Source: Patescibacteria group bacterium (GTDB taxonomy: Bacteria; Patescibacteriota; Minisyncoccia; Phycocordibacterales; UBA918). Taken from it: a stretch of DNA of 35,287 nt. Below the pieces are notes generated by a model that did not search any database, was not told where the DNA came from, and saw only the letters and a list, made by a program, of their open reading frames with translations. How positions within the stretch are numbered: the stretch's first letter is position 1; each line of letters starts with the position of its first letter. Location: contig JABAZV010000018.1 of assembly GCA_018608435.1 (NCBI GenBank), positions 1-35,287 of the forward strand. Direction: 5' to 3'. The position numbers and the translations under genes were made by a program. This document shows, piece by piece, positions 24,497 through 31,233 of this stretch.

Positions 24497-24912
24497 TCCG
24501 CGGTAGCTCAGCGGTAGAGCATCCGGCTGTAACATTGAACATTGTTCGTTCTAAATAGCAGCCTCCCGTAGTAATGCGGGTTGCAAATGAGGTGAATTGT
24601 CTAGTTTGTTTACAAATTAGAGGCTGTCATGGCTAGTCCATTTCAGTACTGGAAACCCTAACAAGCATTCGTGCGTTGAGGGCAATCAGCAGCCAAGCCC
24701 TGTATTGTTTATTCAAGTTTTGGTTTGAATAAAACGCGCAGGGAAGGTTCAGAGACTATCCCTTTTGGGAGTAGGGCAGGTAACTGTTCGAAGCGCCTCA
24801 CACCCAGATTTCTTATTTATAAGTGATTTGGGTGATGATATAGTCCACCCCTTGGAGAAATCCTTGGATACGTGTAACCGGCAGGTCACAGGTTCGAATC
24901 CTGTCCGCGGAG
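24497..24912 (+). tRNA. tRNA-Asn(GTT) interrupted by a group I intron; exons 24497-24530 and 24875-24912
   Basis: Spliced: TCCGCGGTAGCTCAGCGGTAGAGCATCCGGCTGT^TAACCGGCAGGTCACAGGTTCGAATCCTGTCCGCGGAG; 7-bp acceptor, ACAGG/CCTGT T-stem, 7-nt anticodon loop CTGTTAA. CCA not encoded. Confidence 0.92.
24531..24874 (+). ncRNA. Group I self-splicing intron (344 nt, no obvious ORF)
   Basis: P1: exon GGCUGU pairs with IGS GCAGCC giving U.G at the 5' splice site; R element GTTCAGAGACTAT (24747-24759); S element GATATAGTCC (about 24837-24846) forming P7; Q-like GGCAATCAGCAGCCAAGCC; terminal G. Confidence 0.92.
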
Positions 24913-25036
24913 CATATTACAAAGTGAAGCATTTACAGGGGTCCTTGCAATCAAATTGTAGGGACTTTTGTATTGTAAACTAACGATATTTCGGTTGAGG
25001 AGGGTAGAGTTCGATAGTGATTCTGAGAGCTTTCAT

Positions 25037-28768: not shown

Positions 28769-28890
28769 GTTCGAAAAGCATCCAACTGGGGGAGCAAAAT
28801 AGGATAGGGAACTAAACAAAAGTCCGAACATCCTTCACCCAGTGGATCCGACAAAAATGAGCTCTAACTACAGAGCTCATTTTGGTAGGG
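28769..28890. repeat. Left pair of degenerate tRNA-3'-end-like repeats (28769-28807; 28822-28890)
   Basis: GTTCGAAAAGCATCC...GGGGGAGCAAAATAGGATAG and GTCCGAACATCCTTCACCCAGTGGA...AAAATGAGCTCT/AGAGCTCATTTT; counterparts at 31146-31233. Confidence 0.6.
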
Positions 28891-28948
28891 AAGTAGAAAA
28901 AAATCGTGATTGTCCCCATTTCTTGTTTTGTAATCGGTTTGAAAAATT

Positions 28949-28977
28949 AACGGCCCCCATCAACGATGGTGGCCGTT
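28949..28977 (-). terminator. Terminator for minus-strand small ORF
   Basis: Minus strand AACGGCCACCATC-GTT-GATGGGGGCCGTT followed by AATTTTTC. Confidence 0.75.
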
Positions 28978-28995
28978 TTGTTGCACCGAGTGGTG

Positions 28996-29145
28996 CTAGT
29001 CATCGCGATGGCGGGGGTGTCCGCAACGTGTATGAAAGATCTCCGCGTCTGCCTGGTCCTGGTCGACGACGTCATCGTGCTCGTCTACCTGGTCAGCTCG
29101 GTCGAGAAGGAAAGGTACAGTTGGTCGCTCTTGCTGGTCATTCAT
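28996..29145 (-). CDS. 49-aa putative RiPP (graspetide-type) precursor peptide
   Basis: MNDQQERPTVPFLLDRADQVDEHDDVVDQDQADAEIFHTRCGHPRHRDD*; SD AGAAGGAG 7 nt upstream; terminator immediately downstream; co-directional with ATP-grasp gene. Not in ORF track. Confidence 0.6.
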   Translation of the reverse strand: MNDQQERPTVPFLLDRADQVDEHDDVVDQDQADAEIFHTRCGHPRHRDD

Positions 29146-29181
29146 TTAAGTTCTCCTTCTTTCTGAAGTGGAAAAACCATG

Positions 29182-29913
29182 CTACATACTATTCAAGATA
29201 TCTGTCAAGCTGGTAGGAGTTCCTGCAGCTTCGGTCTGCGGTATGGTCAATGTGGCGTCAAAGTAGCCGTTTGGCCCAATTTGCTGCGATTCGAAACCGG
29301 TCACGTTAACCACTTGACCTTCTACTGCAAGCGAGCCTTTCTGATACTGAATAAATACCGAATAAGTTTCGTGCTGTTGTTTTAGGTACGCTGCCATTGG
29401 TACTACGGTCTCCTGGCCATTATGGTACTCACTTGTTCGTGCGTGCATGTTGCCAGTCTCTACCACGACAAACCTGTTGGGGTGCTTTTGTGCGTATGCG
29501 CTCAGTGCTTGAGAGAGCGCATATTCATGGTCGCTGACTGGGTCCATAGTGTCAAACGTAGTTATGTCAAACTTTTCTTTATGTGTGCGGTTGTAGTGCT
29601 TCATCCACTTCAGCAACGCCGCGTGCTCCATGGTAAACCTGCCATCGGAATCTAAAAAGAATTGCGGCAGGGATGTGGGCGCGGTTCCAGCTTGAATGTA
29701 GTCTCGCAACATCCCTTGTTCGTTCTCATTGAGTGGCCACTCAAACGCAACTGTAATGGGCTTTTGTTTGCCCGCTACCGCCTGCATCACGGAACGCACA
29801 AGCCCTGCATTTTGTTGCGAGCCGTGCATTTCTCCTAGAACCATGAACGAATATTCAGGCACCAGCTCGGCTGCTCGCTCTATGAGGAATTGTGCTGGTT
29901 CTTGCGTGGGCAT
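29182..29913 (-). CDS. TIKI/ChaN/EreA-like superfamily protein
   Basis: FMVLGEMHGSQQNAGLVRSVMQAV...ITVAFEWPLNENEQ, VVVETGNMHAR; start at MPTQEP or alternative 29952. Confidence 0.6.
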   Translation of the reverse strand: MPTQEPAQFLIERAAELVPEYSFMVLGEMHGSQQNAGLVRSVMQAVAGKQKPITVAFEWPLNENEQGMLRDYIQAGTAPTSLPQFFLDSDGRFTMEHAALLKWMKHYNRTHKEKFDITTFDTMDPVSDHEYALSQALSAYAQKHPNRFVVVETGNMHARTSEYHNGQETVVPMAAYLKQQHETYSVFIQYQKGSLAVEGQVVNVTGFESQQIGPNGYFDATLTIPQTEAAGTPTSLTDILNSM

Positions 29914-29976
29914 TGTATTGGTTATTATACAACAAATCGATCCGGCCTCCATGGAGAACCGGATCGTAAAAACGTG

Positions 29977-30918
29977 TTATTCACACAAAAAACGTACAAA
30001 TGGCGTTGCAAGGTCTGTGCCCGTTGCGTACTGAAGCCAGAGCCACTGGCCATTTGGATTGATTTCCAGGAACACGAGATCACCACTATCTACTTCCACA
30101 AGGTCGATTGCAGCAAACTCTAGCTCGTAATGTCGCATCAGTGCTTGAAGCTTGGTTGCGATACATTCATCAAGCGTGCAGTACTCATGTCGTATCTGGT
30201 CCAAGGAAAGCTGCTTGATGTCGTCTGCATCGGACTTACGGGTTTGCCGAAATGCATACATATGCTCCCCGAACACAACCACGCGAAGCTCTGAACGCAC
30301 GGGCAACTTCTCTTGCGCGTAGCAAGGCATGTGGCTGATCGCAGCATTGAAGTCATTCTTATGGAGGGTTCTTGTCCCGAGGACCAAATGTTCAGTGCCG
30401 TCATGCAGTACTTGTGTTTGGATTGGCTTCGCTACAATGTCACCATCACAAGCATCTGCAAACGAAGATAGCTCGTCTAGGCTGTTCGTAACAATGGTTT
30501 TAGGTATACGAAGTCCTTGCTGGCGTGCTTTTACAAGCTGGCTAAGTTTTGGCCGAGCTCGAACCAGACTGCTTCTACGGTTCACCCAGCGACACGACTC
30601 GTAGGTGTTAAGGATGGACTCAACAATACCCTCCCGCTCCTGCCAGACAAACGATTCAACGCTGTCCTTTGCGTCATGGAACGGATTTCTCCGTCTGTAC
30701 CATACGGTGGTCACGTCGCACGGAAGCTGTGTGCCATGTACCGCGGCGACACCGCCCATGATGCTCCACACAAATGGATGTGCATCTTGTTCATCTAAGA
30801 AAGTGTCCACATCAAGACGGAATACAGAGACATTTCGCTGTGCCAGTGCTTCCGAGATTATTCGAACATGATGGTCGTCCGATTCAGTCACAATGAGAAT
30901 AGAGCTGTTTCTTGCCAT
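29977..30918 (-). CDS. MvdC/MvdD-like ATP-grasp peptide ligase
   Basis: N-term SSILIVTESDDHHVRIISEALAQRNVSVFRLDVDTF; WVNRRSSLVRARPKLSQLVKARQQGLRIPKTIVTN; FAAIDLVEVDSGDLVFLEINPNGQWLWLQYATGTDL; SD AGGAG, ATG at 30918. Confidence 0.85.
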   Translation of the reverse strand: MARNSSILIVTESDDHHVRIISEALAQRNVSVFRLDVDTFLDEQDAHPFVWSIMGGVAAVHGTQLPCDVTTVWYRRRNPFHDAKDSVESFVWQEREGIVESILNTYESCRWVNRRSSLVRARPKLSQLVKARQQGLRIPKTIVTNSLDELSSFADACDGDIVAKPIQTQVLHDGTEHLVLGTRTLHKNDFNAAISHMPCYAQEKLPVRSELRVVVFGEHMYAFRQTRKSDADDIKQLSLDQIRHEYCTLDECIATKLQALMRHYELEFAAIDLVEVDSGDLVFLEINPNGQWLWLQYATGTDLATPFVRFLCE

Positions 30919-31145: not shown

Positions 31146-31233
31146 GGTTCGAACATCCTCCACCCAGCGGAGCTAGCAAAATGAGTCTTATTTATAGGGC
31201 TCATTTTTAGTAGGATAGTTAACGGTTCGAACC
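31146..31233. repeat. Right pair of degenerate tRNA-3'-end-like repeats
   Basis: GGTTCGAACATCCTCCACCCAGCGGAGCTAGCAAAATGAGTC...GGGCTCATTTTTAGTAGGATAG then GGTTCGAACC; resembles 28769-28890. Confidence 0.6.

Follow-up and report, generated by a model that had tools for sequence, protein, structure and literature searches.

Three co-directional genes on the minus strand of a Patescibacteria contig very probably make up a graspetide cassette, a RiPP system in which a 49-aa ORF encodes the precursor. The cassette (28942-30918) lies in a 35,287-nucleotide stretch of DNA, referred to here as the window, and its gene order is ATP-grasp ligase, TIKI/ChaN-like gene, 49-aa ORF and strong terminator (Table 1). 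The host genome measures 0.95 Mb and is 98% complete by a tool estimate; GC content is about 49% in the cassette region versus about 40% in its surroundings. A preliminary description of the window had proposed this arrangement, with the small ORF preceded by a strong Shine-Dalgarno sequence at 7-nt spacing and followed immediately by a terminator, and every coordinate that it gave holds. We found no transporter gene in the window operon, and a defence system was rejected on a PADLOC search that returned no match.

Table 1. Features of the cassette and its flanks, in the order in which they occur along the minus strand (window coordinates).
Feature	Position	Strand	Basis
Repeat copy upstream of the cassette, behind a hairpin, CTGGGTGGAGGATGTTCGAAC	31147..31167	-	repeat search
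ATP-grasp ligase of graspetide type, 313 aa; predicted to macrocyclise peptides in a leader-dependent manner	29977..30918	-	family models, PDB matches, trees
Hairpin CGATCCGG...CCGGATCG between ATP-grasp and TIKI genes	29938..29966	-	sequence
Probable hydrolase of the TIKI/ChaN/erythromycin-esterase superfamily (256 aa; start likelier at ATG 29913)	29182..29952	-	Pfam (below cut-off) and invariant residues
Precursor Shine-Dalgarno AGAAGGAG, 7-nt spacing	29153..29160	-	sequence
Graspetide precursor gene (probable), 49 aa, MNDQQERPTVPFLLDRADQVDEHDDVVDQDQADAEIFHTRCGHPRHRDD	28996..29145	-	conserved small ORF, pairwise BLASTP, codon test
Predicted leader recognition segment PFLLDRA, residues 11-17	29095..29115	-	alignment against precursors of other CPR graspetide loci
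Predicted core FHTRCGHPRHRDD, residues 37-49, motif [ST]xCx6DD	28999..29037	-	conservation, motif search, codon test
Intrinsic terminator closing the operon	28942..28977	-	fold z -5.2
Repeat copy downstream of the cassette, behind a hairpin, CTGGGTGAAGGATGTTCGGAC	28822..28842	-	repeat search

The ATP-grasp ORF runs from an ATG at 30918 to a stop codon at 29977-29979. For the TIKI gene the start at ATG 29913 is likelier than that at ATG 29952, because the latter sits in a hairpin and a TATAAT (29929-29924) precedes the former. The terminator consists of a hairpin (28977-28949) with a T run, and the minimum free energy of the region is -27.4 kcal/mol.

The ligase had been likened to MvdC and MvdD, and comparison with family models upheld this placement. 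The graspetide models scored far above RimK, with TIGR04187 (ATP-grasp ribosomal peptide maturase) at E 1.4e-55, MvdC at 3.6e-41, MvdD at 8e-36 and RimK at 2.4e-13. TIGR04187 is the best curated model, at 188.7 bits against a cut-off of 350, and the individual graspetide subfamily models also score the ligase under their curated cut-offs; it is above the cut-off for PF21068, the Pfam model of the MvdD pre-ATP-grasp domain. A two-row profile of the ligase compared with solved structures gave six matches (5ig8, AMdnB, CdnC, 5ig9, 9bou and 7drm), all of them graspetide-type or MvdD-like ATP-grasps. We compared approximately 57 graspetide-type ATP-grasps, nearly all from Patescibacteria, drawn from 397 genomes of the order, 380 of the phylum and 384 of the class. 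A tree of 47 sequences set the RimK-like paralogues apart (support 97/96) and placed an annotated Streptomyces TgmB among the relatives of the window ligase. A second tree with more rows had a poorly resolved backbone and RimK-like rows on a long branch, and only its local groups were used. Judged by these sequence comparisons, the window ATP-grasp is a graspetide-type peptide maturase and not a RimK enzyme. An AlphaFold model of the ligase built from a two-row alignment had a pLDDT of 38.

Evidence for the precursor comes from a second species of the same genus, Candidatus Kaiserbacteria RIFOXYD1_FULL_42_15 (MFMT01000039.1; hereafter G029), which carries the same three genes in the same order. 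Its ATP-grasp and TIKI proteins are 40% and 28% identical to those of the window, and its ATP-grasp/TIKI gap also holds a hairpin (L013 2251-2276). At the place of the precursor it has a 47-aa ORF, separated from the TIKI gene by 37 nt as in the window, so that the conserved small ORF sought at a homologous locus was found. In a pairwise BLASTP comparison the two peptides matched with E 3e-11; both have PFL[LM][DQ]RA in the N-terminal part and close with FH[ST]RCGHPRxRDD, and their C-termini are nearly identical (FHTRCGHPRHRDD in the window and FHSRCGHPRARDD in G029). The 13 core codons contain 12 base differences yet encode 11 identical residues, with eight synonymous and two non-synonymous codon changes, and when equally many differences were placed at random 11 of 13 residues were kept once in 200,000 trials. 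This excess of synonymous over replacement changes indicates purifying selection on the peptide, and on this codon evidence the 49-aa ORF is genuinely a gene. What the two peptides conserve is the PFL..RA leader together with the last 13 residues. In the very acidic second half singled out in the preliminary description, the acidic stretch is not conserved; it is a variable linker, not the core. Among 49 genomes of the family and 397 of the order, only the window and G029 had close precursors above noise; a scan of genome contigs found only the Kaiserbacteria relative, owing to the specificity of its patterns, and viral contigs scanned for the core gave 0 matches.

In other CPR graspetide precursors the leader follows P-h-h-h-x-x-A-[DE], and the predicted leader here is similar. 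PFLLDRA and its G029 counterpart PFLMQRA fit the Phh of Phhx(1,2)h, with the trailing hydrophobic not strictly matched, and A17 and the next position align with other CPR leaders. Related leaders occur in small ORFs near other ATP-grasps (PLILDFAE, PFMFQFAE and PITFLHSE). Within the predicted core, T39 (S in G029), D48 and D49 are conserved, and the window core has a single hydroxyl donor. The Thr to Ser exchange at the predicted ester donor is one of the two core replacements and a conservative swap of hydroxyl nucleophiles, which strengthens the earlier guess at Thr39. H38, C41 and H43 are also conserved between the two species.

With two more Patescibacteria loci, G089 (TTCDNPPRTDD) and G874 (TDCGPNSSPDD), the core motif widens to [ST]xCx6DD. 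Both retain the Cys of [ST]xC and the DD pair at fixed spacing, and both lack the two His residues. In about 0.96 million non-redundant small-frame residues, the motif was found in four precursors near an ATP-grasp and a TIKI gene and in two other, unrelated places. The G089 ligase is the sister of the window/G029 pair in the second tree (support 98/92), and the G874 ligase falls outside their group. Because the G874 ligase is placed elsewhere, the motif could have arisen there by descent or by convergence, and its resemblance to that of the window may be convergent. The G089 precursor has no clear Shine-Dalgarno sequence and does not share an operon with the G089 TIKI gene. The G874 precursor (L166 1485-1661) has its own Shine-Dalgarno sequence and terminator and lies between the ATP-grasp gene and a divergent TIKI gene, which is followed by an ORF that looks C39-like from its sequence. 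Other arrangements were seen as well. G548 and G1004 (L086 and L159) have the order ATP-grasp, small ORF, TIKI, and their small ORFs (49 and 36 aa), which share PE[VI]FA and acidic ends, probably constitute another precursor family. Two further loci (L089 7159-8985 and L091 8582-10393) encode ATP-grasps roughly double the normal size (608 and 603 aa); in both, a small ORF that ends in the conserved MWQTYST...DADDTND[DG] comes before the ATP-grasp gene.

The third gene had been described as a GExH-containing TIKI/ChaN-like partner that might be a protease, a tailoring enzyme or a metal- or haem-binding component. The motif stood up, as GEMH at residues 40-43 of the 256-aa ORF. E41, H43, E71 and H170 are invariant in 8/8 graspetide-linked TIKI homologues and match the 2His/2Glu set of the TIKI family (numbers from PMC6254334). 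With this set intact, the partner cannot be read solely as a ChaN for haem uptake; it resembles a catalytic TIKI/Ere hydrolase more than a ChaN that binds haem. Pfam matches were under the curated cut-offs (PF04187, E 5e-4; PF05139, 0.034), an AlphaFold model from a two-row alignment reached a pLDDT of 56, and a Foldseek search with that model gave no useful match, so assignment to the fold rests on the sequence motifs. The gene is nearly confined to ATP-grasp loci: it occurs in 8 of 45 ligase-selected genomes, in one copy each and always either adjacent to an ATP-grasp or no more than about 1.5 kb from one, and in three of 49 genomes from the family to which the window belongs, these being the two cassette carriers and G036. 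The G036 gene (L169 4771-5568) is solitary, with no ATP-grasp or precursor nearby. All four [ST]xCx6DD loci have a TIKI/erythromycin-esterase-type gene with an intact 2His/2Glu set (hypergeometric p 1.8e-4 for the association, with only two of the lineages independent and the motif chosen after the loci had been seen).

Graspetide ligases are switched on by the leader; an Asp or Glu side chain is phosphorylated with ATP and attacked by Thr, Ser or Lys (PMC8939145; PMC13097080). For the window locus, we infer that the ribosome would make the 49-aa precursor, whose PFLLDRA leader would dock on the ATP-grasp ligase and activate it; the ligase would then phosphorylate the side chains of Asp48 and/or Asp49, and Thr39 (Ser in G029) would attack one activated Asp to give a macrolactone. 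The conserved Cys41, at the position expected of a second nucleophile, may attack the other Asp to give a thioester. The TIKI/Ere-type hydrolase would cut off the leader or hydrolyse the ester or thioester as self-protection. The core contains a single hydroxyl (T39, or S in G029), a single thiol (C41) and the acids D48 and D49. One macrolactone would be the minimum, and a second ring would need the Cys. The product would probably contain one omega-ester and possibly one thioester.

Two rival explanations fare badly. The first, in which the ATP-grasp would be a RimK-like amino-acid ligase with no connection to the small ORF, draws on the common superfamily and the weak RimK match, but the far higher scores of the graspetide models, the separate clade formed by the RimK-like paralogues of the genus and the conservation of a small ORF under selection make it very improbable; the family scores and the separate clade rule out a RimK-like ligase. 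A chance ORF in intergenic DNA has nothing in its favour beyond small size and is refuted by the codon pattern: a second species shares the place, leader and core, and the codon changes are mostly synonymous, and we give this explanation practically no credence. 

Within a graspetide cassette, the chemistry of Cys41 and the task of the hydrolase each admit more than one reading. We put at even odds a single omega-ester ring, from Thr39 or Ser to Asp48 or Asp49, in which Cys41 stays free to form a disulfide, to bind metal (HxxCxH) or to react with a target. The joint conservation of H38, C41 and H43 in both species favours this, and the presence of one hydroxyl nucleophile only in the window core is compatible with it. 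Thioesters are labile in cells. That lability also speaks for the single ring, as does the view of Carter 2026 that thioesters are non-native for graspetide synthetases (PMC13097080), because of which a natural graspetide thioester would be new within the cited literature. On the other side, the loss of the His pair from G089 and G874, with the Cys and the DD kept at fixed spacing, fits ring formation better than metal binding. Synthetases whose native products are esters give thioesters when supplied with Cys substitutions (PMC12291112). We entertain, tentatively and as the less probable course, Cys41 as a second donor joined to Asp48 or Asp49 in a macrothiolactone that lies within or next to the Thr39 macrolactone, the TIKI/Ere hydrolase acting on the labile bond. 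Whether the hydrolase is instead a leader peptidase, or otherwise releases the core, and not an immunity esterase seems to us an evenly balanced matter. One member of the TIKI superfamily, a site-specific endopeptidase, shares this 2His/2Glu set (PMC6254334), leader cleavage or maturation has been proposed for Tiki/TraB neighbours (Makarova 2022, PMC8939145), and the window operon has no other peptidase; yet the superfamily also contains macrolactone esterases (Ere), and the C39-like ORF beside the G874 TIKI gene would make a second leader peptidase redundant.

Plesiocin-type hairpin graspetides have the core TTxxxxEE. The window core resembles that of this type (PsnB, 7drm) in having two N-terminal nucleophiles and two adjacent C-terminal acids, a layout that suggests nested rings, and differs in its [ST]xCx6DD spacing, in Cys for the second Thr, in Asp rather than Glu and in being single and non-repeated. 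Likeness to the microviridins (MdnA/B/C, MvdC/D) lies in a ligase homologous to MdnB, MdnC and AMdnB and in a leader with a PF-hydrophobic motif and Arg; the locus nevertheless falls outside that group, with PFLLDRA(D) in place of PFFARFLE, one ligase rather than two, and a core (FHTRCGHPRHRDD) that has a Cys and no Thr/Ser/Lys cage. Streptomyces tgmA/tgmB (TIGR04187, GRASP_SAV_5884) provides the best-scoring model and a ligase 31% identical, but the cassette has no O-methyltransferase, an unrelated precursor and a ligase score under the model cut-off. The hydrolase resembles VvRRSP, Ere and ChaN (PMC6254334) in E41-x-H43, E71 and H170, with E71 28 residues after H43, the same step as in VvRRSP; unlike them it is about 240 aa long, lacks appended lobes and is encoded in a RiPP operon.

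A RiPP system in a CPR-like genome had been anticipated as notable. The cassette itself is supported, but graspetide clusters in CPR bacteria, some with Tiki/TraB proteins, were already reported by Makarova et al. 2022 (PMC8939145). In their branch 2, to which the locus can be likened by description (CPR hosts, graspetide-type ATP-grasps, Phh-like leaders and, in some loci, Tiki/TraB), most precursors were not found and small missed ORFs were suggested. The window locus fits that description and supplies such a missed ORF, with a Cys-containing core; it differs in having no third partner, a cluster 23 protein being present in all branch 2 loci. New are the precursor family and its conserved Cys, at the position expected for a second nucleophile in ring formation. 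Where most ligases of one CPR branch lacked an identified substrate, a CPR graspetide ligase thereby gains a precursor backed by cross-species codon evidence, together with a searchable signature of [ST]xCx6DD core, PFLxxRA leader and adjoining TIKI gene. The three small genes make it testable whether a natural Cys serves as a graspetide donor, and likewise what role TIKI-type hydrolases play in peptide pathways of tiny-genome, probably host-dependent bacteria.

The cassette was present in two of 38 genus genomes searched and was probably acquired horizontally. It is flanked by copies of a 26-nt repeat, CTCCGCTGGGTGGAGGATGTTCGAAC, that stands behind a hairpin or terminator and occurs five times on one strand of one contig (further copies at G000:C13 35815, 37004 and 43438), with no close match elsewhere in the host genome. 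Similar repeats occur in other Kaiserbacteria (L111, L112, L113, L115, L118 and L121), often near mutM/def/fmt/priA, and are absent from G029; an Rfam search of the flanking repeats gave nothing informative. Some copies have an imperfect inverted half upstream that recalls attC sites, but no genome had an integron integrase above the model cut-off and we therefore do not call them attC sites. A tyrosine recombinase from a genome of the window's family (L130, G041:C13:238-1038) gave the strongest integron-integrase match, at 137 + 98 bits in two pieces, below cut-off. Elsewhere in the window, a plain tRNA scan missed a tRNA-Asn(GTT) on the plus strand (24497-24913), whose anticodon loop is split by a group I intron of 344 nt (Rfam RF00028, 58.1 bits).
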